The position numbers and the translations under genes were made by a program. Positions 1 through 52,100 of a stretch of DNA of 64,000 bases are shown piece by piece. The DNA lies in the NCBI GenBank assembly GCA_033439265.1, contig JAVTVX010000017.1, positions 8,640,001 through 8,704,000 on the forward strand, given 5' to 3'. Numbering within the stretch: position 1 is the stretch's first letter; every line of letters starts with the position of its first letter. The DNA comes from Dillenia suffruticosa. Its lineage: Eukaryota > Streptophyta > Magnoliopsida > Dilleniales > Dilleniaceae. Below the pieces are notes generated by a model. That model made no database searches. It saw only the letters and a list, made by a program, of their open reading frames with translations, and was not told where the DNA came from.

Positions 1-2002
1 CTTCATTCCCCTGTAGTTCTTCTACTGAAGCATTAAGAAACGCTGTGCTATCAGGGATAGGACCGTGCAAATGATTGTAGGATACATCGACCAGAGATAA
101 GCCACGCATATTTTCAAAAGACTTGGGAATCAAACCACAAAGGTTGTTGTGCGATAGATTAAGTGACACCAGGCTCTCCAAACTCTGTATTTCAAATGGT
201 ATCTCCCCTGCCAGCTTGTTGTTGCTGAGATCAAGCTCAGAGAGATGGTTTAGCCTCGTAATCTCCAGTGGGATATTTTGGCTAAATTTGTTAGAGCTTA
301 AATTCAAGTGGAATAAATTTGAGGAATCCCCCAAGGTTTTGGTTATGGGCCCGTCCAATGAATTCATTGACAGGTCCAAATAGCTAAGTGCAGAAAGAGA
401 CCCTAGTTCTGGAGGTATGCCACCAATGAAGTGATTGTCATTCAAGCACAGCTCCCACAAAGATCTTAAATATCCAACTTCATTTGGAATCTCACCAGAT
501 AAATGATTTGAAGATAGATCAAGTACCCCAAGTTGAGTCGATCTTTTGAGCTGAGATGATATCTCTCCCGTGATATTGTTTCCAGCAACTTTTAGGGTTC
601 CCAATTTTGGCCATCTAGCCCAATTGTCTGAAATGTGACCATAAAAGTTATTGTGGCTCAGATCAATAAAATCTAGATGTGGATAGACTCCAAATGCCTC
701 CGAGATGTTGCCGGAGAAATTGTTATAGCCCAGCCAAAGTCTCGACAATGTGGAACAGTTTTTTAAGCTTTGGGGGACCAAACCGGTGAAGTGATTGTCG
801 CTTGCAGTGAGATTTTCAAGTTTACCACCTAGACAAACTTCGTGCAAAGACCCTGTGAATTGGTTTGTGTCGAGTTGAAGTATAGTTAAGCTAGTCAGCT
901 TTTCTAGTTCTTTAGGAATTGACCCAGAAAATTGGTTGTCACGGAGAAATAATATCTCTAACTCCCTTAAGTTGCCAAGTGAAGCTGGAACGGTGCCGTT
1001 GAGATAGTTTTCACTCACTTCAAGGTCAACCATGGAGGTCAATTTTCCTAGTTCTTCAGGAATGGGTCCCGACAGGTAGTTACTATAAAGATGGAGAAGA
1101 TTTAGATTGGTTAGATTACCTAAAGAGGCTGGAATTGAACCGGAAAGATGATTCGTTTGGAAGCTGAGCTCTTCAAGGGATTCCAAGTTCCCCAATTCCG
1201 GTGGGATTGGACCAGAGAGTAGGTTGTTAAACATGTACAGAACAGAAAGATTCCTCAAGTTTCCAAAAGCAGAAGGAATTGAACCAGAAAAATTATTGGT
1301 GTCCAGAAATATCAAATTAAGATTGGTGAGATTACCCATTTCTGGAGGAATTGGACCTGACAGTTGATTCTCATAGAGATAAAGAGAAACCAAGTTGCTT
1401 AAATTTCCAATAGAAGCTGGAAGTGACCCAGAAAGATAGTTTGTATACAAAGCAAGTTCATAGATCGACTTTAATTGGCCTATCTCTTCAGGAATAGACC
1501 CATTTAACTGATTTTCAACCAAATGAAGGACTTGGAGATTTGTTAACTCTCCAATTTCTGGTGGGATATTTCCCACGAAATGATTGGTGGAGAGATCAAG
1601 ATAGATGAGTTTGGAAAGAGAACCGATTTCAGGCGGGATTGTATCAAAAAGTTTATTCATGCTTAGATCAATATATGCAAGATTAGGAAAAGATGAGAAT
1701 GAGAAGCCATGGAGTGTACCTCCAATGCCTGCGCTTGTGAGGTTTAGTCTGTTGACTCTTCCTGCTTTGTCGCAAGAAATGCCATACCAATGAATGCAAG
1801 GGCTGTGAGTGCGATTAGACATCCATGAAGAGAGAATGGACTGAGAGTGGCTTGAAAGACTAGCCTTCCACTTGAGAAGGGCATTAACTTCTTTGGTAAC
1901 ACCAGAAGCCAATGCATATTTGAAACCAGGTGAGACAACTAACAATGCCACGAAGTACAAGAATGCAATGCAAAGCATTTTCTCTAGCTTTGATGAACCC
2001 AT
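1..2002 (-). CDS. LRR receptor-like kinase, MIK2-like, copy 1 (partial, runs off left edge)
   Basis: This is the 5' part of a plasma-membrane leucine-rich-repeat receptor kinase gene. The start codon is at 2000-2002 and I read 667 codons in frame to the window edge without a stop. It aligns base for base, with no net indel, with 14823-16824 of copy 2, and only scattered substitutions separate them. The visible part holds a signal peptide starting [10 protein letters not shown], a cysteine-containing LRR N-cap, and about two dozen LRRs of the LxxLxLxxNxLxGxIPxx type. The window ends just before the membrane segment, so transmembrane and kinase parts lie outside. The family perceives peptides or other apoplastic ligands; the ligand here cannot be read from sequence. 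Intactness beyond the edge is unknown. Confidence 0.92.
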   Translation of the reverse strand, partial: MGSSKLEKMLCIAFLYFVALLVVSPGFKYALASGVTKEVNALLKWKASLSSHSQSILSSWMSNRTHSPCIHWYGISCDKAGRVNRLNLTSAGIGGTLHGFSFSSFPNLAYIDLSMNKLFDTIPPEIGSLSKLIYLDLSTNHFVGNIPPEIGELTNLQVLHLVENQLNGSIPEEIGQLKSIYELALYTNYLSGSLPASIGNLSNLVSLYLYENQLSGPIPPEMGNLTNLNLIFLDTNNFSGSIPSAFGNLRNLSVLYMFNNLLSGPIPPELGNLESLEELSFQTNHLSGSIPASLGNLTNLNLLHLYSNYLSGPIPEELGKLTSMVDLEVSENYLNGTVPASLGNLRELEILFLRDNQFSGSIPKELEKLTSLTILQLDTNQFTGSLHEVCLGGKLENLTASDNHFTGLVPQSLKNCSTLSRLWLGYNNFSGNISEAFGVYPHLDFIDLSHNNFYGHISDNWARWPKLGTLKVAGNNITGEISSQLKRSTQLGVLDLSSNHLSGEIPNEVGYLRSLWELCLNDNHFIGGIPPELGSLSALSYLDLSMNSLDGPITKTLGDSSNLFHLNLSSNKFSQNIPLEITRLNHLSELDLSNNKLAGEIPFEIQSLESLVSLNLSHNNLCGLIPKSFENMRGLSLVDVSYNHLHGPIPDSTAFLNASVEELQGNE

Positions 2003-2042
2003 GGTTTCTGCGTGTGAGTTCAAGTTTGGTAGCAATGAGCTA

Positions 2043-2050
2043 TATTTATA
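2043..2050 (-). promoter_or_regulatory. TATA box of LRR-RLK copy 1
   Basis: TATAAATA read on the minus strand, about 40 bases upstream of the start codon. The same box sits at the same distance in copy 2. A start site about 30 bases downstream would leave a 5' leader of only 10-15 bases. Confidence 0.6.
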
Positions 2051-2059
2051 ACTGCATTT

Positions 2060-2921
2060 TGCAGCACTTGGAGACAATTCAAGGCCCACAAATATTAGAT
2101 TTAGAAAGGGAGGGAGGGGAAAAGTCCTGTTGCTTAGGAAACTTCTTTTCCTTTTATTATTTTAATTTTTTTTCTTCTATCCCCTTGGGTTTTGTAAACC
2201 TTCTGATATTGTCCTCCTATATTTCCACTCCACTCCTTTTCACTTATTGGAAAATACTCCAGGCCTAGTACGTGGAAAATAATTCACAAAGCAGACCCAA
2301 TGGATGTTTAATGCGAAACAAATGTGAATTGCATACATGGATTTTTCTATAATTTGGTCATTTAAAAACTACCATCTCTTATAGAATGAAATAGTAAAAT
2401 AATCTGACTATTGGATGAAAATTTCACTCACAGCTCCATAAATGTCAATTCTCATTAAATTATAAAAGTTTTTATCCTAAATGTTACCATTTCATCTTTT
2501 GTTATGTAAGGTTATGAGTAGAAATTGGGACCATTAGCCCAACTGCAAGGGTACATGTTGGAGGAAACTAAAGTTACCGTTCAAAGGATGACATTGATCT
2601 TCTGATTTTTTGTTTATTAGGCATTATCCGACACTGGTACTTAACTTTGCCCTCTCTATAACAAAAATAACAACGTAGCTAGTTACCACTGTTATGGATG
2701 TCCAAATGTGTGTGAAAATAAGCATATGACCAGTGAGGGGGCCAAACAAAAGTTATGAGTAGCAGGCACGCTTGCACACATTAGTACAAACCCAAAGAAT
2801 GGTTAAGTATTTTGGGTTCAACCCAATGGAAGAAATGTCTTATCATTTTCGCTGGGCCAAAATAATCATAGAAACAAGACAAGCAAGCGTAAATTTAACT
2901 TTGCAATGGGAGGAAGGGAGG

Positions 2922-2957
<36 letters not shown>

Positions 2958-4270
2958 CAGGCCAAAGAGCGTAATAGCCACGTCAATATTCTTGACTGAA
3001 GCATACAGCAGGGGCCCTTGATACGTTTGTGTATGTGGAAACCATTTTAAACGTCCCTTGACTTTGTTTAAAACACATATTATAGTAAACAGATTATCAA
3101 AAATAAATGAGCTTACAAAGAAAAAAGAAAAGTTACGCGGATTCACTAAACAGACGAAAGAAGGTTGATCAAAACAGAAAGCAAAAAAACATAAAGGTTC
3201 ATTAAATTTCCCTTTTCACTTTTATTTGTCAAGATGAAGAAAGCAGAATAAAAGAATAGGACTTGTGATAGTGAATGTGAAAACAAGAAGAGAAAATCAA
3301 CGAGTTTGATCCCTTCTATGAACCAAAAAAGAAAAAAAAAATTATTCAGGAAATTGACTTATGGTCAACAATTACACTTTGTGGCACATCCATGATGCTC
3401 AAATGTGCAATTTCGTGGAATGGAAAGCAAAATTGTTAAGAGAAAATTTAATAAAGCGGGGAGAAGGGCATTTCCCTCTGTTTTATCACTCTCCCGCATT
3501 TAAAAAAATATCTTTTTATTTATTCGTTTATTTATTATTGATTAAAAGATCTATATGTTTAAAAATGTATAATAAGGGATATTGAAATTATTACTTTTTA
3601 AAAACTAAACCTTTTTATGCATATAAAGAAAATCTAGGTCTACTTGACTCGGAGTCAACTGGGTCACCACGACCTTTGTCTGGAATTCAGAGGTTGACTT
3701 GTAACCCCAATTAGAAGCAATTTTACAAAGTCCGTCCCATTAACATGCATTTGGCCGGAGTATGCAGAAAATCTCCGTGCCGTGTCTTATGTTCCATCAA
3801 TCATTATATTCAATACCAGAACTGATTATTGAATAAAACTCTTCGTTTCTACATAAAAACCTTTTTGTTCTAGAAAAAAAAAATTGTAAAATAAAATAAA
3901 ACAAAATCCCAAGTAAGCTTAAAACTGAGAAAGGGAAGAGGGGAAAAAGGGGCTCCTCCTGCGGACCTAGGTGTGATTTCACTTTGATAACCCACATCAG
4001 AACTTTAATAGAGAAGGTTTAACTATGTTAAAATTTCCCCTATTCCCACTCCAAAGGATGAAGATACTTTATTTTACTACAAAGGATGTTAAAATTTTGA
4101 CAATAAACAAAACATAAAATTACTTCCATTCAAATTTTCCTCATCTTGGCCATATTAACAAGCCTTAGAAGAATGTAAAAGATGAATTATTAACACCAAG
4201 CATATAACCCGTAGGTACTTACATTATAACTCAGTAGACTTGATACAATAACCAGAATGTAAAAGCTGAA
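2060..4270. repeat. Upstream flank of LRR-RLK copy 1, duplicated with copy 2
   Basis: No gene is visible. Blocks at about 2040-2110, 2245-2340, 2970-3510, 3520-3850 and 3850-4270 match, in the same order, blocks upstream of copy 2 (16865-17470 and 24300-26727). About 115 bp near 2110-2240 and about 580 bp at 2341-2920 have no counterpart there. The two copies are therefore a segmental duplication, and matching ends near 4270. A (GA)n microsatellite at about 2927-2957 lies at the edge of one unmatched block. Confidence 0.75.
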
Positions 4271-5934: not shown

Positions 5935-6930
5935 ACATATTTTATATTTTAAAATAAAATAAAATTCATATATCTTTAAGAAAAAAATAAATTTACCTAT
6001 TAACAACACAAAAATTTTTACTAGTAATGAAAATCGATTAGATCGATTTTAAATAATTTTAATTAAATTTTATTTTATTTGATTTGATTTAAACTATAAA
6101 AGGATTTATGATCAAAACGATCGATTCAATTTGATTTTAAAAATACTGCCCGTGGTATATATTTGATCTAAACTTTAATTTTATCCTTAGTAAGTGTATG
6201 TTTCTGTATATTTTACTTGATAGTTTTTTGAATTCATCTGTATTGTCTTGTCAAGGTACCGGGTTAAATCATGTCATCCTTTCATTTCTTCAATAAGGTC
6301 AGCTCTCATACGCGTTACTTTTTCGTTTTTTTAGTCGAAATACTCTGAATTGTGGCGTCAGACAGACTTCACTATCCTATTGAATAGGACTAGAATGAAA
6401 ACGAAGTGGGTGAAACATGGCCTCACAACATTTTGTAATGGGTACCACGGACCCGTGCACTCGACTTGATTAGCCCAGCCCATCAATTTTCTGAGCTTCG
6501 CAGCATTTCCCAGACTGACTGGTTTAGGCCAATCTTTTAGAACACATTTAAAATCCAACCAAACGTGCCCATACCTTTTAGATGAACCAGGAGTACACCA
6601 TTTGTGTACACGGTGTGAAATTTAAATTTTATCTAAAATATTAGGATTGCGTGTCCATAAGAAATAAGTATAAAAAAATAATTACAATATTGTTATGAAA
6701 ATATTTATGAAAAATTAAATTAACATAGAAATTAAAATTTATTAGAAAAATGGCAAATACTTTATTAATTAACATAATTAAGAATCATAAAAATTTGAAA
6801 TTGTGAGTAAAAAATATATTAATAAGAGAACTAAAAATGATTGATATCAATTAGAAACAAATTGAACAATCAAAGAATAAATTATGATATTTTTTAGTGA
6901 ACCTGTTGGGTAAAAATCGTCATATACCAA
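5213..6930. other. AT-rich intergenic stretch
   Basis: I see no gene. It contains a short AAT run near 5306, an uninterrupted (TA)n microsatellite at about 5898-5930, and AT-rich low-complexity DNA. The short minus-strand reading frame at 6358-6558 shows no recognisable domain. Confidence 0.5.
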
Positions 6931-6934
6931 AAAA

Positions 6935-8445
6935 AAAAAAAAGCTTTGAGGATTGGTCAGTGGTCTATCGGTTGAGTCACAAAGTACTAGTACTTTACGA
7001 CGACAAGAGTTTTGAGGATTGGTCGGTGGTCGGTCGTCTCAATCAAAGTATTGGTACTTTGCAATCCTCAATATCATGCTAAGAATAGTTAGAATTTCCA
7101 GAAGAAGATGCCCTCAATGGTCAGTCATCTCAGTCACAAAATATTAATAGTTTGCGACTATAAGAATTTTGAAGATTAGTCAATGATCAGTCATCTCGAT
7201 CACAAAGTACTAGTTCTTTGCAACCGCAAGAGTTTTGAGGAGTAGTCAATTGTCTCAGTCATAAAGTACTAGTATTTTGCGACAGGAAGAGCTTTGAGAA
7301 TTAACTTCCATAAACTATGAACATCAAGATCATGACACACTACTCTCTTCAACTAATCTCGACATACTAGAATTGGTCGACGGTCTATCGTCCCAGTCAT
7401 AAAGTATTGGTACTTTGCGACTACAAGAGATTTGAGAATTGGTCGGTGATCAGTCACCTCAATCACAAAGTATTAGTACTTTGCGACTGCAAGAGTTTTG
7501 AGAATTGTTCAGCGTCCGGTACTTTGTGACTGCAAAAGTTTTGAGAATTGGTCGGTACTCGATCGCCTCAATCACAAAGTACTAGTACTTTACGACAGCA
7601 AGAGATTTGAGAATTGGTCGATAGTTGGTCGCCTTAGTCACAAAGTATTTGTACTTTGCGAACGCGAGAATTTTGAGGATTGGTCGGTGCCCTTAGTCAC
7701 AAAGTACTTATACTTTGCAACCGCAAGAGTTTTGAGAATTGGTCAGTATTTGATACTTTGTAACTACAAGAGCTTTGAGGATTCATCGGTGGTCGGTCGC
7801 CTTTGCAAACGCAAGAATTTTGAGGATTGGTTGGTGTTCAGTTACTTTAGTCACAAAATACTAGTACTTTACGAATGCAAGAGTTTTGAGAATTGGTCGG
7901 TATTTGGACCCCTCAGTCACAAAGTGCTTATGCTTTGCCAATGCAAGAGTTTTGAGGATTCGTCAGTGGTTGGTCCCCTCAGTCACAAAGTATTGATACT
8001 TTGCGATGACAAGAGATTTGAGGATTAGTTAGTGTTTGGTTGGTTCAGTCATAAAGTACTAGTATTTTACAAATGTAAGAGTTTTAAAAATTGATCGGTG
8101 TTCGATTCCCTCAGTCACAAAGTACTTGTACTTTGTGAATACAAGAGCTTTGAGGATTGGTTAATGGTCAGTCGCCTCAGTCGCAAAGTACTGATACTTT
8201 GCGATGGTAAGAGGTTTGTGGATTGGTCAGTGTTCGATACTTTGTAACTACAAGAGATTTGATGATTGGTTAGTGTTCGGTCGTTTCAATCACAAAGTAT
8301 TGGTACTTTACAAATGCAATAGCTTTGAGCATTCGTCGGTGTTCGGTCGCTTTAGTCACAAAGTACTTGTACTTTGCGAACGCAAGAGTTTTGAGAATTA
8401 GTCGATAGTCAGTCACCTCAGTCACAAAGTACCGATACTTTGCTC
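6935..8445. repeat. 66-bp minisatellite with palindromic core
   Basis: A degenerate tandem array with a period of about 66 bases, roughly 20 whole or partial units. Each unit has a GAGTTTTGAGGATTGGTCGG-like half and a half centred on AAAGTACTAGTACTTT, a 16-base perfect palindrome intact at 6981-6996 and 7576-7591. Because 66 is a multiple of three, some strings of units stay open as 22-residue peptide repeats (6897-7082, 7498-8028, 8204-8401). The first codons differ and stops interrupt most units, so I do not call a gene. A different repeat interrupts the array near 7300-7375. The array ends about 45 bases before a TATA-like site. Confidence 0.88.
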
Positions 8446-8490
8446 ACCATGTAGTTTTGTTAGTTAACTGGTTTGCCTGGTCTGAGAGCC

Positions 8491-8498
8491 TATAAAAG
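8491..8498 (+). promoter_or_regulatory. TATA-like box beside the minisatellite
   Basis: CTATAAAAG on the plus strand, directly downstream of the 66-bp array. No convincing reading frame follows, so it may be the core promoter of a non-coding transcript or of a dead element, or chance. Confidence 0.3.
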
Positions 8499-8499
8499 T

Positions 8500-9560
8500 T
8501 CCTGCATAGTTCAAAAAACAAAATCAACATTTATATCTAAATTATTTGTTCTCATATATTTTACAAAATTTAGAAATCTTAAATAATTATTTAGAGTCAA
8601 CACCATAGTCAGAGTTTTTTGGTATTACGTGTTTAGAAATAGGAAAGACAAACACAAAGCTTTACGGCAGAAGAATAGCTTCCATATACCATGATCATAA
8701 TTAGGCACACCACTCTCGTTAATCTTAACCGGAAAATAACCATTTTGAAACAACAATAAATATGAAGAGCAGTAGAACAAATGTCAAGTAAAGCAAATAT
8801 TTAAAAGCAAGAAAGACAAACACAACCTTAGGAGAAATGGCTTCCATACACCACGATCATCATTAGGTACATCACTCTTTTCAATTGGAACTGAAAAATA
8901 ATTTTTTGGAAGAGAGACACATAAAAATAAAGAGAGAGAGAAAAAAAAATTTACTCAATGATCACATGCCCGTATCCATTTGTCCTGCTTATATGGAGAG
9001 AGAAAGAGAGAGAATGAATATAGAGGAATTGTATCTACACACCATGATTATCAAGATTTTGGCACAACACTCGCTTCAACTAATCCGTACGACTTCCATA
9101 CACATGATTATCAAGATCATGGTACACGACTCTCCTCAACGAATCTGTGCAACACATTGGAATTGCATGTCCATTTACCCCGCTCTAGGAAAGAGAGAGA
9201 GATACAGAGCTCCAGTTTTATGGTCCTCGTAATAAATAAAGAAAGAAATATCATCACAATATTCTAGTCCAACACAACTCACCAAATGATAAATGAGTAA
9301 ATAATGAGAGAGGATAGTGAGAATAATAAATGAGAGAAATTAGAGAGAATGTTTAGTATGAGAAGCTTTTAGAGAAAGAGGGTGTATGTGTACTAACAAT
9401 ATTGGAAGACACATGTTAACATGTGACGGTGGAGAGAAAGAGAGAGAAGTAGGATATATGGTGATAGAATTATGGGACCATTTTTACAACATGTATATTT
9501 GTATATAAATGTTTGAGAGTATGTACTTCACCAAATGCAACCAATGACACATCATATGTC
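8500..9560. repeat. Dispersed short repeats, GA-rich, no gene
   Basis: A motif resembling CTTCCATACACCATGATNAT followed by CACxACTCTCTTCAACTAATC recurs near 8680, 8840, 9040 and 9095, and once inside the 66-bp array near 7307. The rest is GA-rich. CACATGTTAACATGTG at about 9410-9425 is a perfect 16-base palindrome. Overlapping small reading frames at 8885-9267 fall on these repeats and look non-coding. Confidence 0.55.
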
Positions 9561-10140
9561 TAACTCAGACGGCCAGCTCACCAATAATGAATCACACCCT
9601 GCCAAATGGAGGACGAGTAAAATCGAGATGGCAAGTGATCGTTCACGCTTAGATCTATATAGTTAATAAATTGATTTGTCCGAAATATTTTACAAGTTTG
9701 GATTGTGAGAATAAATTCGAATTTTAAATTGAAATTAAGTTTGAACACAAAACCCCTTTTAGACACGAGAAGGCTTAGTCTGAGTCTAACCAGTGCCCAG
9801 TTCTACTATGGCATTCCAAGGTTAGAAAATAGTATCATAGAACAGAGTAACTCCTTTGGCTCTTTTGTTTCTGTTCGGGCCCTATCTCAGTGCAGGGAGA
9901 GAGAAGCCTCTGATGCCCCCACCAAATAATTTGAGTTAAATGATCCAGAAATTAGACAAGGTTTTGGACATCTCCTTTTCTTGTCTTAATTTTTGGTGGT
10001 GGTTTTCATAGAAGTGGTTTCGAAATGGAGAGTTGTATTTATTGCTGATTCAGGTTCCTTCTGGTCCGGTGACGCAAGCCCTCAAAATTTGGGGCACCAA
10101 AGAAAGTAAATTTTGGCAGGAGCCTACCATTTGTGAAATT
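9560..10140. other. Spacer without recognisable gene
   Basis: Mixed-composition sequence. The small frames here (9578-9766, 9705-9929, 10039-10239) match no family I know. It may include decayed 3' sequence of the neighbouring receptor-kinase pseudogene. Confidence 0.35.
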
Positions 10141-13628: not shown

Positions 13629-16600
13629 CTATGCCGCAGAGTGCATTGAAAACACCTGAGAGACACTCTTCATGGTTGGCCTAGTCAAAGGATTGACATT
13701 CAAACATGCAATTGCAACCTTTATAATCCACTTCAATTGCTCCTCGACATGAATGCCTGGTTGGGAAAGACGCTGATCTAGCATATCATTCGGCTGTATG
13801 GTCTCCTTCTCAAATGAAGGCAACATTATGAAAGAGATCAGTTCACCCAGATGCTTTCCTTTGATCACTTCCAGGGCCAGCACTCCAAAACTATATACAT
13901 CACACTTTTCTGTCACTTTCATAGGGAAAGCAAGCTCTGCAAAAAAAAGGGGGGGGGAATTGTTAGCTGGGTAAAAAATTTGTGAAAACAAGGAAATTGA
14001 AAATTTGAATTATGTTACCCGGTGCCAAATATCCATAGGTGCCTGCAAGCCCTGAAAAGTTGGACGAGTCTAGCTTTAGAAGCTTAGCAGTACCAAAATC
14101 AGAAATGTGAGCTTCCAACTGGGAATCAAGCAGAATGTTTTTGCTTGATATGTCCCTGTGGACAATAGGTGGTGAGAGATCATGGTGCATGTAAGACAAG
14201 GCATGAGCCACACCCTTGATGATGTTTATTCTCTTAAGCCAATCCAATTCTCTAGCTTCTTCATTGTTCCCAAGGACTGCAGCCAAGCTACCCCTGTCAA
14301 TGTAATCGTAAACCAAAAACGAGTGAAGGGCATGTGAGCAAAATCCGTGGAGTTTCACAATATTGCGGTGCCGAATTTTTGTCAATGCTCTTATCTCATT
14401 CATAAACCCTTTCTTGTCTTCAATCTCACCATCATGTAATGAATGCAACTTCTTCACAGCAACAACATTGCCGGATGCCAACTGTGCTATGTAGACGCTT
14501 CCTTGTCCACCTTTTCCTATGCAGTGCACTTGGTCAAAATCATTTGTTGCTTTTATTATTTCTTCATATAAAGTCCTTCCTCCAAAAATTGAAATGGAGA
14601 GAGAATCTTCGCTGCCTGGATCAATGTGTGTTGATGGTGCCCGAGAGAACTTTCTTCTGTGACAAAAGATAACAACTGTGACCAAAGCATATAAAAGTAA
14701 AAGTGCACCCACAATGGGAAGTACAATTAGCAACACAATGTGATGGCTGTCCTTTTTCTTGGCACGTGCATTTGTTGAGGAAGGACTACAAGGTTGGAGC
14801 CCAGTCACACTTCCGCATAAGCCTTCATTCCCCTGCAGTTGTTCTACAGAAGCATTAAGAAACGCTGTGCTGTCAGGGATAGGACCGTGCAAATGATTGT
14901 AGGATACATCAACCAGAGATAAGCCATGCATATTTTCGAAAGACTTGGGAATCAAACCACAAAGGTTGTTGTGGGATAGATTAAGTGACACCAGGCTCTG
15001 CAAACTCTGTATTTCAAACGGTATCTCCCCCACCAGCATGTTGTTGCTGAGATCAAGCTCAGAGAGATGGTTTAGCCTCGTAATCTCCAGTGGGATATTT
15101 TGGCTAAATTTGTTAGAGCTTAAATTCAGGTGGAATAAATTTGAGGAGTCCCCCAAGTTTTTGTTTACAGGCCCGTCCAATGAATTCATTGACAGGTCCA
15201 AATAGCCAAGTGCAGAAAGAGACCCTAGTTCTGGAGGTATGCCACCAGTGAAGTGATTGTCATTCAAATCCAGCTTCCACAAAGAGCTCAAATATCCAAC
15301 TTCATTTGGAATCTCACCAGATAAATGATTTGAAGAAAGATCAAGTACCGCAAGTTGAGCTGTTCTTTTGAGCTGAGATGATATCTCTCCCGAGATATTG
15401 TTTCCAGCAACTTGTAGGGTTCTTAATTTTGGCCATCTAGCCCAATTGTCAGAAATGTGACCATAAAAGTCATTGTGGCTCAGATCAATAAAATCTAGAT
15501 GTGGATAGACTCCAAATGCCTCCGAGATGTTACCAGAGAAATTGTTATTGCCCAGCCTAAGTCTTAACAATGTGGAACAGTTTTTTAAGCTTTTGGGGAC
15601 CAAACCGGTGAAGTGATTGTCACTTGCAGTGAGATTTTCAAGTTTACCACCTAGACAAACTTCGTGCAAAGACCCTGTGAACTGGTTTGTGTCGAGTTCA
15701 AGTATAGTTAAGCTAGTCAGCTTTTCTAGTTCTTTAGGAATTGACCCAGAAAATTGGTTATCACGGAGAAATAATTTCTCTAACTTTCTTAAGTTGCCAA
15801 GTGAAGCTGGAACGGTGCCGTTGAGATAGTTCTCACTCACTTCAATGTCAACCATGGAGGTCAATTTTCCTAGTTCTTCAGGAATAGGTCCCGACAGGTA
15901 GTTACTATAAAGATGGAGAAGATTTAGATTGGTTAGATTACCTGAAGAGGCTGGAATTGAACCAGAAAGAAGATTGGTTTGGAAGCTGAGCTCTTCAAGG
16001 GATTTCAAGTTCCCCAATTCCGGTGGGATTGGACCAGAGAGAAGGTTGTTAAACATGTACAAAACAGACAGATTCCTCAAGTTTCCAAAAGTAGAAGGAA
16101 TTGAACCAGAAAACTTATTGGTGTCCAGAAATATCAAATTAAGATAGGTGAGATTACCCATTTCCGGAGGAATTGGACCTGACAGTTGATTCTCATAGAG
16201 ATATAGAGAAACCAAGTTGCTCAAATTTCCAATAGAAGCTGGAAGTGACCCAGAAAGATAGTTTGTATACAAAGCAAGTTCATAGATCGACTTTAATTGG
16301 CCTATCTCTTCAGGAATAGACCCATTTAACTGATTTTCAACCAAATGAAGGACTTGAAGATTTGTTAACTTTCCAATTTCTGGTGGGATACTTCCCACGA
16401 AATGATTGGTGGAGAGATCAAGATAGATGAGTTTGGAAAGAGAACCGATTTCCGGCGGGATTGTATCAAAAAGTTTATTCATGCTAAGATCAATATATGC
16501 AAGATTAGGAAGAGATGAGAATGAGAAGCCATGGAGTGTACCTCCAATGCCTGCACTTGTGAGGTTCAGTCTGTTGACTCTTCCTGTTTTGTCACAAGAA

Positions 16601-16824
16601 ATGCCATACCAATGTATGCAAGGGCTGTGAGTGCGATTAGACATCCATGAAGAAAGGATGGACTGAGAGTGGCTTGAAAGACTAGCCTTCCATTTAAGAA
16701 GGGCATTTACTTCCTTGGTAACACCAGAAGCCAATGCATATTTGAAACCAGGTGAGACAACTAACAATGCGATGAAGTACAAGAATGCAATGCAAAGCAT
16801 TTTCTCTAGCTTTGATGAACCCAT
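13629..16824 (-). CDS. LRR receptor-like kinase, MIK2-like, copy 2 (complete)
   Basis: Two exons, 16824-14019 and 13936-13629, around an 82-base GT-AG intron, encode 1037 residues. From the N-terminus: signal peptide (1-30), LRR N-cap with a Cys pair, about two dozen LRRs (to about 650), a membrane helix (about 694-720), then a kinase domain with [10 protein letters not shown] (about 770), [19 protein letters not shown] (about 888), DFGTAK (about 908) and an APE motif created exactly across the splice junction. All key catalytic residues are present, and HRD makes it an RD kinase. The frame is open for 65 codons upstream, but I chose MGSS because it starts the signal peptide, is shared with copy 1, and the TATA box lies inside the extension. 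The family is LRR-XIIb, close to MDIS1-interacting receptor-like kinase 2. The ligand is unknown. Confidence 0.95.
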
Positions 16825-16864
16825 GGTTTCTGCCTTTGAGTTCAAGCTTGGTAGCGATGAGCTG

Positions 16865-16872
16865 TATTTATA
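16865..16872 (-). promoter_or_regulatory. TATA box of LRR-RLK copy 2
   Basis: TATAAATA on the minus strand, about 40 bases upstream of the chosen start, conserved with copy 1 while the surrounding sequence has drifted. Confidence 0.6.
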
Positions 16873-17023
16873 ACCGCATTTTGCAGCACTTGGAGAAAAT
16901 TCAAGGCCCACATATATTGGATGTAGAAAGGAGGATACTCCTAGCCTAGTACGTGGACAATAATCCACAGAATAGACCCAATGGTTGTTTAATGTGAAAC
17001 AAAAGAGAATTGCGTACACACAC

Positions 17024-17089
<66 letters not shown>

Positions 17090-17472
17090 ATAGCTACGTC
17101 AATATTCTTGACTGGATCATACGGAAATAGACCAAAGAAAGTTGTTTAAATTAGCGGTTTAAAGTTCAAAACAGAAAGCAGAAGACTATAATGGTTCATT
17201 AAATTACCCTTTTCACTTTTATTAATCAAGACGAAGAAAGCAGAATAAAAGAATAGGACTTGTGACAGTAAATGTGAAAACAAGAAGAGAAAATCAACGA
17301 GTTTGATCTCTTTTATGAACTAAAAAAGAAAAAAAATGTACAGGAAATTGACTTATCGTCAACGATTACACTTTGTGGCTCATTCATGATGCTCAGATGT
17401 GCAATTTCGTGGAATGGAAAGCAAAATCTTTACGAGAAACTTTAATAAAGCATGGTGAAGGGCATTTCCCAG
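16873..17472. other. Upstream flank of copy 2
   Basis: This is the counterpart of the flank of copy 1 (about 2050-3480), with two blocks absent. It contains a long (GA)n microsatellite at about 17029-17087. No gene is visible. Confidence 0.7.
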
Positions 17473-18329: not shown

Positions 18330-21300
18330 TTGCTGATGTGATATGCTAATCATTATAGCGAGAATCAGCTCATACCTCGTCAAAAGGACCTTTGTGGATC
18401 AAGGAGCGGAATGTGACATCTTCTTTCGGGACACCTTCTAGTAGATAGGTTTCATCCATCTCAACTTCGACCCTCTGATTAGTCCATTAGAGAGCTCACT
18501 AGCAAATGCATACAGTCGGAAGGCCTTATTTCGCTCACGTATCGCTACGCTCGCCTCCTCATCACGCTGTTACACAGACCACTTTTTACGTTGTAAAGCT
18601 TCCATCCCCTTACAATGTCATTCTAGGTCATCCCAGCCCAAACGATCTTGAAACACCACTGAGCACTAGACACATGAAGATCAAGTTTAGAACACTCTTG
18701 GGGATCGCGACACTTCATAGTGAATCCAACCCGTTAACCACTCCCATAGCGGAAGGAGAAGGGGAAATGTTGGCAAAAGACACTATAGAACTCTGGGATG
18801 ACACCGAGCAATAGTTAAAATCTCAACCTGGAGAAGGGGAATCAAGGTTTCCATCACCGACATGCCTAGTCAAACCATTCAAGTCGGTGCCCACCAACCG
18901 ACATCCCTTCAGAAAGCAATCGTGGAATGCTTGCGACGCCATTCCAAGGTCTTCGCATGGTCCCCCGAGAACAAGTCAAGCATTCATCCCTCGGTCATAG
19001 TCCATAAGCTGACTATAAAAGCCGATCACAAGCCTGTCAAGCAAAAGAAACAAGTATTTGCGTTGGAACAACAACGTGCGATGCAAGAAGAAATTCAAAA
19101 ACTCTTAACAGCAGGGTTCATCCAAGAAGTGAAATACCCCGAGTGGTTGGCAAACGTGGCCATGGTAAAGAAAGCGAACGAGAAGTGAAGAATGTGCGTA
19201 AATTTTACTAATCTCAATAAGGCGTACCCAAAGGATAACTATCCGCTCTTCAACATTAACAAGTTAGTTGACCATTCATCTGGTTACCAACTTTTGAAAT
19301 TCATGGATGCATACTCTGGTTATAATCAGATACGTATGACCCCTGAAAATGAGGAAAAACCAGCTTCATTACGGAGTTTAGTACTTATTGCTACAAAGTT
19401 ATGTCATTCGGCCTCAAGAACACTGGGGTAACCTTTCAACGCCTGGTCAACAAGGTCTTCAGAGATCAACTTGGTAGAAATGTAGAAGCCTATGTTGACG
19501 ACATGCTCGTCAAAAGCCCCAATGCCGACGATCATGTCGTAGACTTGGAAGAGACATTACAAATGTTAGAACAATACAATATGATGTTAAACATCGGAAA
19601 GTGCACCTTTGGGAATGTCTAGAAAATTCCTGGGCTTCCTTATTACTCACCAAGGGATTGAGGCGAATCTGAAAAAAATTCGAGCCATACTAAACATGAT
19701 ATTACCAAAAACAATGAAAGACATGCAACACCTCATAGGCAGGATAACAACGCTAAACCGATTCATGTCGAAAGTGTGGGAGAAGTATAAACCTTTTTAC
19801 GATGGTATGAAGAAGTCACAGAAGTTTGCATGGACGCCCGAGTGACAAACTGCATTCGAAAGGCTCAAAAAATATCCCATGTTGCCCCCGCTCCTCTTCC
19901 GATCGATCCCTGGTGAGAAACTATACTTCTACCTCTCTATTTTTGACCATGTGCTCTGCTTCGTCCTCATGAGACATGAATCTAGCGTACAAAAGCTAGT
20001 TTATTATGTCAGTCGCATACTTCACGAGTTCAAAGTGAACTATAGGCCCATCTAAAAGATAGCTTTTGTTTTGGTCGTCACCATCAGGCGTCTTTGACCT
20101 TACTTCCAAGCTAAGACTATCGTTGTGCTAGCCAACCAACCCATAAAACAGATTCTACAGAAGAGACATACCTCTGGTCGGCTCATCAAGTAGTGTATTG
20201 AATTAGACGAATTCGACATCGAATACCAATAAAGATCAGCTATCAAGGGCCAAGCCCTCGTGGACTTTATCCTCGAGTGAATAATCCCGACACCTATCGA
20301 GCAGCACTTTGCGGATGGCAAAGAAGAATACTTAAATAGAATGGACCCTCCATGTCGACAGGTCGTCCAACTATTCGGGAAGTAGAGTTGGACTCATCCT
20401 AATGGGTCAGATAATTTTAAAGGCTGAATACACCCTCCATTTTGACTTCGAGCAACCAACCAAGCTAAATGCGAAACTCTCCTGACTAGTTTGCGGATCG
20501 CGGCGTCATTAGGGGTCCGAAGTATATGGGTCATCACCGATAGTCAATTGATCGTTAAGCATATCAACCAAAGAATCGACGATGACGAAGTATTTGTCCA
20601 AGATATACCAAGCGGTAGACAAATTTGTTAAGGTAAACATACAACAGATCTCTTGATTCAAGAACGCACGAGCCAATACGCTCTCGAAGTTAGCTAGTTC
20701 CAACTCAATGGCAACAAACCGCACTATTTACATAGTAAGCCTACCATGCCCTAGTATCGAAGAGCCCAAACAAGTCTTGTCGGTGAACAACTCACCAAAT
20801 TGGAAGGACCCTATAAAAGCCTATCTGAAGAACGAGCAACTCTCAAGCTCGCCCTCCGAAACTAACCGGTTAAGACGTAGACCCACCCATTATGCTATCA
20901 TCAACGGAAACCTCTACAAGAAATCATACACACATCCATATCTAAAGTGTCTGACACCTGAAAAAGGGAACTATGTACTCAGGGAAATCCATAAGAGAAT
21001 ATACGACAGTCACTTGAGTATCCAAAATTTGGCAAACAAAGCCCTTCGACAGGGGTACTACTGACCAACTAAGAAGGATAATGCGCACAATTATGTCAGA
21101 AGGTGCAACAAGTGTCAGTGTTTCTCATTGGTGCCACACCAGCCCTTTACCTGTCCAATATCCAGCCCATGGCCATTCGCCCAATGGGTAATGGATATCC
21201 TAGAACCGTTTCCCCTAGCGACCGGATAGCAGAACTTCTTGATCATAGTTGTGACTATTTCACAAAGTGGATAAAAGTCGAACCATTAGTTCAAATCATC

Positions 21301-22020: not shown

Positions 22021-23606
22021 CACATCTATTATCAGTAAGGGTCAATGGTCATTCGAACGAGCACATCCTGTTCCACGCATAATCAAACGATCACATAAAA
22101 CCCCTATGGACCTTTAACTTGCTGTGCTAACCTATCGACCTGCTCCATAGGATGTGTCGTTAGATAGGGATTTATCTCCCTAAACGAGCCAATATCGTCT
22201 AGTCCTCCCAAATAAAGTCTACCGATAGAGATTTATCTCCCTGAATGGGGTCAATATCGCCCGGTCCTGTCGAACAGAGTTTATCAATAGAGATTTATCT
22301 CCATGAATGGGCCAATGACGTCCAATCCTCCTGAATGAAGTCTATTGTTGGGATCTATCTCCCCGAATAGGTAAATACCGCTCCGACTAACGAGTGAACA
22401 TGTCAAGGAAAGAGTTTTCTGAACAAGATGGATATAGCCCTTGCACTCGGTTAAGCTCTCTAACAGGTAGAATTATATCGGTCCAATCCTATTTGTCGAG
22501 TCACTTGCTCAACATCGCAGCACTCATCATACACATCAGTGGACTGCTGATGACAAGATAATCATTTAAAAGCAAGATTGACAAATAAGTAACAGAAAGC
22601 TCTTCTTTTATTTCAATAAGATTATTACATATCAGAAAACAAATCTAGATACAATGCGAAGAGAATCTACAAGTCCTGAGTCGGACTGGATTATATCAAA
22701 GGCAAGACATGAGGAATCTACAATAGAAAACCAATCCGATGCAAGTCCAGAACCAGAAACAGCTCCATGACTCATCGTCGTTACAAAAATGGATCACAGG
22801 AGCCTCCACAACCTACCTAGAAACTCCAAGCAGTGGAGTTGAAGAGGATAAAAATTGCAAATCCTTATCAGCCGGAGCCGGGGAAAGAATTAGAGAAGGT
22901 AGGAGTTTACCAAAAAAAGACCGAGATGATGTATCAAGTTCTAAACCCTCTGCCATGCCCAGACTCTACTATTTCCCTACACTTCCCGTCGCCCGACCGA
23001 TGGAGCACTAAGAAGTGTCCAAGACAACCTCTGCTACACTTATACGACCAGGCGATAGTTCTAACCCCAGAAGAGAGTTCTCTCTGTGCAAAAAATATCT
23101 CTCCCTCATAAGGTTGAGAACTCTAATGAGAGCCCTAACGATTTTCACCACAACGTCCGACCACCAAACAATATGATGAGATCTCACATCAACAATCCCA
23201 TTTTTAATGAAATCTCGCATAAACAGAAGTTTTCTAAACTACGGGGTTTTGTGACTCAAAACTCATAATCGAGTTATCTCTCAGAAATGCAGACTCTCAA
23301 CAGTAGAAACTCACAAAACCACTCATGGCAGTACGCAAAATCTCTCTGAGACAATGTTGAGTCATACAATCTCTATTTATAGCCGCGAAGACATGATCCG
23401 TGCGACCTTGGGTAGATGAACGATCCAATGAGAAAGGCATGCAATGAATAGGGAGTTTCAACCCCTTCAACTCTCCATGAAACATTTATTCATAAATCAT
23501 TAATTCAGAAGTCCAATGCATTAACACTTTCGCGACTTCCCAAGTATCAACCCTTAACTTACTCCTTATGTCTCTCTTACAAAGTGACATAAAGAGTAGG
23601 GACAAA
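22021..23606 (+). other. 3' internal region of the Gypsy element
   Basis: Between integrase and 3' LTR. It contains diverged direct repeats near 22150-22400 built around GAGATTTATCTCCCTGAA. No gene is recognised. Confidence 0.5.
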
Positions 23607-50518: not shown

Positions 50519-52100
50519 GCACTAATTACACCAAAAGGAGTACCAATTTCACGAGCAATAGGATAATTGCAGATGACTTGATACAAGTTTCTCCACATAA
50601 TGATAGAGTCGTCTAGGATTAACATTGGGCCAATTACTAATAAATGAGAGTAGTAAATGATGGTGATCCAACAAGATTGGGGTACTCAGAGGAGGTGAAA
50701 CAGAGCAATCAAAGTTAGGTGGATAGAGTTGTATATGATTAACATTAGGCCAATTGCTAATATATGGGAGTCGTAAATGATGGTGATCCAACAAGATTGG
50801 GGTATTCAGAGGAAGCGAAACAGGGCAATCGAAGATTGGTGTGTGGGAACGGTAGGGCTCCGCTTGCATTTACTTTTCAGCGTGCTCAACTCTCAATGAA
50901 TTTGCATAAATTAATTTTATTAATTTATATATTATAGTTAATGGGTAGATTTTACTTGATTAGATATATAATCATAAAATTCATAATTTTAAATATTACA
51001 AATAATTAGCTAAATTATAATCAGGTAGCAATATTTGTGCAAATGATATCTACCTTACTACTCTATTATTGAGCGACTTGTGAATTTATAAATTTTCACG
51101 TCACAGTGATCATATTTTTTTTTACATTGTTCAATTACACTGGAGACTAAAAACTAACTATTTGATGTGGGTAATAATAATGGGGTTTGTACTAAGAGCC
51201 TCCATAATTTATTTGTCATGAAGAATTTAAAGGGTAGAAAGACTATCACTTGCATTTATAAATGTAGTTGATACACATGGAGAGAGTAAAATATTCAAAT
51301 ATTCAAATCAAATCACTGATCTCTCTTTTTAACATAAAAATTTGTGTAATTTCATACCTCCAAATTTTATAATGTAGAAAAGTTAAAAAGAGATCGGAAA
51401 GCAATTATTTGTTGGTATTTTGTTTTGCTCTCTTTTTTATCTTATTTCTCATTCTTGAATTTTATTTATTTATTTATTTATTTTTTTACATCTTCACTGC
51501 ATCCGACCAATGTTTTAAACCGTTTGAACCAATTGGACCCAAAATTAAAAAAGATGACTATATTCAATCCACGGCCCGAATCACCCGCGGCATCCACTTG
51601 TACCTTTTTTTTGTCATTTATGTACAAATAGGTATAACCGTAGCGAAACATGGCCATGACCCAGCTGAAACGGACGTATTAATTATCAGTACAAATATTG
51701 ATAATTCTCTGTTTTCATCAACTATCAAGTTTAATAGTGCTGGGCCTTGGCGTAGAGCTGAAGAAAAGCGGAAGGGGGAATGTCCATAAAATTGTTTTGG
51801 CTTGTTTTAGTGGAGACCCTTAGTGTACCATTCACAATTTCAGAGTAAGGTGCCATGTAATTTTGGGACGGAAAATGCTTGGCAATTAGGCCTTTTAATA
51901 AATTGCCAAAATTGTCTTTCTCCAAATATATGATTTGACCTATATCATAAAATAAACTCTTCTGCATGCAACGTTATAGTCTGAAAATGGATACTGTTTT
52001 ATATGTATTGAAGTTTTGTCCTAGTTTCAAGAGTCATTTGAAATGAATGAACAAATTAAATCCTCTTCCTTCTTAGAATCGATGCTTCTCAAAATACGTT
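50519..52100. other. Intergenic DNA
   Basis: No supported gene. Near 50620-50830 two copies of about 105 bp (sharing TGATCCAACAAGATTGGGGT) stand in tandem. Small frames at 51409-51789 and 51731-51967 match nothing I know. Confidence 0.4.

Follow-up and report, generated by a model that had tools for sequence, protein, structure and literature searches.

The question raised by this locus is what kind of DNA a long, degenerate minisatellite represents, and how it came to lie where it does. The DNA analysed, referred to here as the window, is a stretch of 64,000 nucleotides of the Dillenia suffruticosa genome (contig JAVTVX010000017.1, positions 8,640,001 to 8,704,000 of the forward strand). An earlier reading of its letters alone, the sequence-only reading, had noted a 66-bp tandem repeat with several features suggestive of function. 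As described below, the repeat very probably belongs to a rolling-circle transposable element, whose parts are listed in Table 1.

Table 1. Positions in the window of the array, the element that carries it and their parts.
Feature	Position	Strand	Basis or remark
66-bp tandem array, 23 recognisable units, 43-bp and 59-bp spacings	6939..8443	.	unit profile
Non-unit patch within the array	near 7302-7375		sequence comparison
Complete non-autonomous element, 3,083 bp, very probably of the Helitron superfamily	6587..9669	-	Helitron_like_N-linked ends and two empty sites
3′ terminus: CTGG (6587-6590), then host T (6586)	6587..6617	-	read from the window sequence
3′ subterminal block, common to other copies	6587..6893	-	sequence comparison
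Element 5′ part	8446..9669	-	from about 8490-8510 on, common to array-bearing and array-less copies
5′ terminus TTATTAACTATATAGATCTAA; other copies TCATTAACMATATAGATATAA	9649..9669	-	read at copy ends
TATA-like CTATAAAAG	8490..8498	+	seen in 2 of the 23 rows aligned, one from the window and one from its segmental duplicate

The 66-bp array

A degenerate array with a 66-bp unit lies at about 6939-8443, inside the interval 6935-8445 to which the sequence-only reading had assigned such a repeat. That assignment is borne out, in that a profile of the unit recognises 23 units from 6939 to 8422, and 13 of the 22 spacings between them are 66 bp. The remaining spacings are 43 bp (three), 59 bp (two), and 64, 93, 138 and 45 bp (one each). 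The patch within the array that does not consist of units resembles a module in the right block, defined below, of copies that lack the array (L042, L043 and L046).

The unit core, AAAGTACTAGTACTTT, has 51 matches in the 596-Mb genome compared to one for its reversed control, and this excess means that the array repeat occurs beyond chance. One locus (L003) has a core match without any 66-bp unit, so not every core match marks an array.

Dispersal of the array and blocks common to its copies

A 440-base query taken from the array gives 138 genome matches, which were grouped by the analyst into about 20 places. The array loci examined are 14 of these (the window copy and 13 further), together with seven array-less loci, and some core matches fall at places beyond the loci examined. 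A second query, which starts at the end of the array, yields 76 matches, obtained from the 40 candidates that were scored out of 190. Copies with the array align from near the start of this query, and many others align only from about window 8485-8515.

Two blocks are common to the copies, called here the left block (about 6589-6893) and the right block (8490 to about 9670), and the copies have little else in common beyond these. The exception is that the flanks of the window copy and of L029 also match, because this region is a segmental duplicate. In the other array copies the parts follow the same order, with the array just inside the 3′ subterminal block, which it adjoins in those copies that keep that block. 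The genome search that the sequence-only reading had proposed thus finds the repeat at about 20 places with common flanks. Its suggestion of subterminal repeats of a large DNA transposon comes close, as the array borders the inner side of a 3′ subterminal block in an element that is very probably of the Helitron superfamily.

The 66-bp unit is absent from copies L042-L048 and L060. The last of these (C17:12836200-12838150) is a Helitron-type element of 1.75 kb that has these ends and the left block, and its middle holds a different tandem repeat of 21/43 bp. The stretch at which the right block begins has inverted copies in the array-less loci L046 (98-470 and 3121-3463) and L045 (2583-2812 and 3783-4029), and long direct repeats occur outside the array in L040, L042 and L047. 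A search for terminal inverted repeats by self-comparison lists inverted matches longer than 60 bp in L033, L045 and L046.

Termini of the element

Read on the minus strand, the element begins at 9669 (5′ end) and finishes at 6587 (3′ end). In the general layout of the copies, the left end consists of a hairpin, CTRR and a host T, while the right end starts with TC or TT. Relatives that lie beside Rep genes (L049, L050 and L051) have the 3′ end ACACCGCGC-ATC-GCGCGGTGT-ACACCTCCTAG|T. CTAG|T is found at the 3′ end in all eight relatives read, and six of the eight have a hairpin with 9-bp arms and a 3-nt loop, 11 nt from that end, which is weaker in L059 and L060. At the 5′ end, all five relatives read start with TCATTAAC. 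These relatives were read at their ends. Four of those read at the 3′ end and one of those read at the 5′ end (L049, L050, L051, L058 and L059) belong to elements for which a Rep match is listed, the others being identified by their paired ends.

Both end patterns are abundant in the genome, with 176 matches to the 3′ pattern compared to three in the reversed control, and 108 matches to the 5′ pattern compared to none. Profiles of the ends, built in part from the array copies themselves, find the 3′ end in 10 of the 14 array loci, the 5′ end in 10, both in seven and at least one in 13, with neither end found in L034.

Canonical Helitrons have a 5′ TC and a 3′ hairpin followed by CTRR, and they insert between A and T, as set out in the sections of PMC4067079 used here. 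The CTRR end is present in the window and in six of the eight array copies read (the exceptions being L033 and L037), and is absent from the array-less copy L046. At the 5′ end, 10 of 15 copies read TC (five of five relatives and five of seven array copies), four read TT (the window, its duplicate L029, L043 and L048), and one, L046, reads neither. The 16-20-nt palindrome that canonical Helitrons carry about 11 bp from the 3′ end is present in six of the eight relatives and eroded in the window. The ends of the window copy are indeed eroded throughout: its 5′ end is TT, its 3′ CTGG still conforms to CTRR, and its hairpin retains degraded 5-bp arms at 6595-6599 and 6612-6616, 8 nt from the end.

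The insertion site departs from the canonical A|T. In 14 copies, with L046 set aside as its end is unaligned and with the window and L029 representing one insertion, the 5′ end is preceded by T in 10, by A in two, by G in one and by C in one, and the window insertion site is T|T. Since a strict A-T target is not found, the element is filed under the Helitron superfamily only.

Pairing of the termini with Rep genes

The Helitron_like_N domain (PF14214), found in Rep proteins, has 149 matches in the genome, 122 of which were used in pairing them with the element ends. With a limit of 20 kb, 19 of 100 listed 3′ ends (at 18 Rep places) are accompanied by a Rep match whose order and strand are as predicted, at distances of 8.4-18.5 kb, compared to 0, 0 and 0 of the 100 in the three alternative configurations. 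The same holds for the 5′ ends: 14 of 100 listed (at 12 Rep places) are accompanied in the predicted arrangement, and 0, 0 and 0 in the alternatives. The two ends also accompany each other, in that for 11 of the 100 3′ ends listed a 5′ end lies where predicted, at up to 30 kb, compared to 0, 1 and 0 for the other configurations. The same genome therefore contains partner elements that combine a Rep domain with these ends, a mark of the Helitron superfamily.

Empty sites and insertion history

When the flanks of the window copy are joined, they match C17:8564412-8564701 and C17:8487995-8488279, both on the contig of the window, across the junction. The match covers query positions 2-248, with the junction at 200, at 71% identity. 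Host DNA runs continuously through AAATTG at the position of the element, and 3 bases are gapped in the alignment about five bases left of the junction. The junction therefore delimits the element to 6587-9669. No target-site duplication is seen at these two paralogous empty sites of the window insertion, as in the Helitron superfamily, and none is seen by eye at the copy ends.

The duplicate of the window insertion, L029, also carries the array and lies about 13 kb upstream. Identity between the two is 81% for the left block, 82% for the array and 85% for the right block; L029 has 329 array bases that the window copy lacks, and the window copy has 21 that L029 lacks. The window copy would have inserted among LRR receptor-kinase genes, and the tandem duplication of that stretch would have come later.

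Origin of the array

The array is very probably passenger DNA of this old, non-autonomous element, because the termini are of the type linked to Helitron_like_N, empty sites exist, and the array occupies the same place in other copies. The Rep/helicase proteins of autonomous elements would have recognised TC at the 5′ end and the hairpin with CTRR at the 3′ end, and copied the element by rolling-circle replication. Slippage or unequal exchange may have produced the array itself at a time before dispersal of the copies, and it would then have spread as a block. The copies would later have become methylated and decayed through C-to-T and G-to-A changes.

In three loci, the 3′ subterminal block also occurs internally, in four copies (L035 at 2041 and 3800, L039 at 2808 and L040 at 2323). 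These lack the terminal arm, begin at positions 10, 17, 18 and 19 of the 3′-end profile, and each follow an array unit. It is conceivable, though unlikely, that an array beside a Helitron 3′ end is a hot spot for template switching during rolling-circle copying. If so, transposition itself would make and lengthen arrays, and sub-families would gain different repeats at this place, as with the 21/43-bp repeat of L060. However, a single inherited duplication or a nested insertion explains these joins equally well.

Palindromes in the unit

The sequence-only reading had described a perfect palindrome in each unit, which does not hold. Among 19 palindrome cores in the window, two are perfect, while 10 keep seven of eight pairs, six keep six and one keeps four; across 13 loci, four of 112 ungapped units have a perfect core. 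The unit consensus does keep seven of eight pairs, a value equalled by only 36 of 2000 shuffled consensus units, and some palindromic make-up of the ancestral unit is therefore likely.

This consensus, and the fact that the array adjoins the 3′ block wherever that block is kept, would be expected if the array were a working part of the Helitron, with palindromes that bind protein or form hairpins and so aid replication or termination. Such a role is improbable. Perfect palindromes are few, the copies without the 66-bp unit include one that has another tandem repeat instead (L060), and the palindrome arms do not covary, with 16 double-changed paired cells compared to 14.7 in column shuffles (781 of 2000 reach 16). 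In addition, the single unit that was folded has no folding excess (z 0.04; 97 of 200 shuffles as good). The proposed ladder of hairpins or row of dimer-binding sites thus finds no support.

The TATA-like site

The TATA-like sequence noted past the array is present as described, but it appears to be without significance. The two aligned rows that contain it are one insertion, the window copy and its duplicate, and in most array copies this position has CYTAAGAAA or a sequence close to it. A solo LTR of a retrotransposon, with a U3 region that bears a tandem repeat upstream of a TATA box, was favoured early, as the succession of array, TATA-like site and block common to array-less copies resembles U3 followed by R-U5. 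It was dropped on account of the TATA rows, the Rep pairing and the empty sites, and is now very improbable: the ends are CTRR and TC rather than TG..CA, the empty site has no target-site duplication, and both ends pair with Helitron Rep genes.

Relatedness and decay of the units

Mean identity between units is 0.734 within loci and 0.723 between loci. This near equality suggests that the array predates dispersal and that the arrays were probably dispersed as blocks. More than three units are present in 11 loci; in seven of these, the window included, units are more alike within the locus than between loci, and in four less so, so that some local spread of units, at most, is likely. In the window, units are 0.773 identical among themselves compared to 0.746 to others. 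This slightly greater internal likeness, together with the degenerate units and the 43- and 59-bp spacings typical of slippage, would suit a simple local minisatellite that expanded independently between LRR kinase genes, an option the sequence-only reading had named; the presence of the same unit with the same flanking blocks at many places refutes it and leaves it scarcely any probability.

Decay in the element consists mostly of C/G transitions, a pattern that, as read from the substitutions, fits cytosine methylation. In the array, transitions affect 19% of CHH, 28% of CHG and 28% of CG sites compared to 3.5% of A/T sites. Two stretches of the right block give CHH 22% and 17%, CHG 33% and 26%, and CG 30% and 32%, with A/T at 6.5% and 4.1%. 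The left block gives CHH 25% compared to A/T 5.7%, with CG at 0 in only 13 cells.

The array also contains the open frame that the sequence-only reading had linked to a coding phase, a stop-free stretch of 183 aa at 7477-8028, and agreement with the unit consensus differs by codon phase (0.78/0.88/0.78). A remnant of an exon coding for 22-residue repeats is nevertheless extremely improbable, and the coding reading was rejected: the stretch has no Pfam match, 44 of 112 units are interrupted by a stop in this frame, and the C/G decay, which also affects the non-repeat blocks, may alone yield such a phase difference. The palindromes, the open frame and the TATA-like site do not look like working parts, as judged from sequence comparison, and no function need be invoked for them. 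All three kinds of feature can thus be incidental when they are seen in raw sequence.

Relationship to known elements

The Dillenia element resembles canonical Helitrons in its ends, in the position of the hairpin, which in its relatives lies about 11 nt inside the 3′ end, in the lack of a target-site duplication and in its Helitron_like_N partners. It differs from them in having mostly T rather than A before the 5′ end, and in its long internal tandem array.

Arrays of this kind are known in animals. In the parts of PMC7492417 used here, the Pacific oyster Cg_HINE elements, which are non-autonomous Helentrons, are described as dispersing satellite-like arrays as the middle of the element, in various combinations of flanks and repeats, at a TT target without duplication and with an empty-site test. 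The Dillenia element is like them in each of these respects, whereas Cg_HINE, as described there, belong to the Helentrons of animals and carry subterminal inverted repeats as well as a microsatellite, and the ends here are TC and CTRR. The DINE-1/HINE elements are likewise given in the relevant sections of PMC4067079 as non-autonomous, with central or tandem repeats in some copies, a TT target and a 3′ stem-loop, all of which have counterparts here. They are also characterised there by subterminal inverted repeats and endonuclease-bearing partners, and the likeness of the Dillenia element to them rests on the other features.

Helitron-borne satellite-like arrays are thus on record in oysters and Drosophila, at least in these portions of PMC7492417 and PMC4067079. 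No plant Helitron with a 66-bp array was found in the literature searched, though one may still be in print. At the present locus, a puzzling minisatellite very probably lies within a Helitron-superfamily element whose ends are defined and for which Rep-bearing relatives and empty sites exist. The locus would add a plant case to the dispersal of satellite-like arrays by rolling-circle elements, a route that the sources cited describe for oysters and Drosophila.

Other features of the window

Two stretches of the window, 1-3476 and 14823-17470, are duplicated, and an ORF on the minus strand at 13963-17145 encodes LRR and protein kinase domains (Pfam). At 18503-19188, the reading frames resemble by eye a decayed Ty3/gypsy polyprotein, and the 128-aa ORF of that stretch has no Pfam match. 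The window also contains other tandem repeats, with units of 62 bp at 22163-22344 and 120 bp at 50602-50841.
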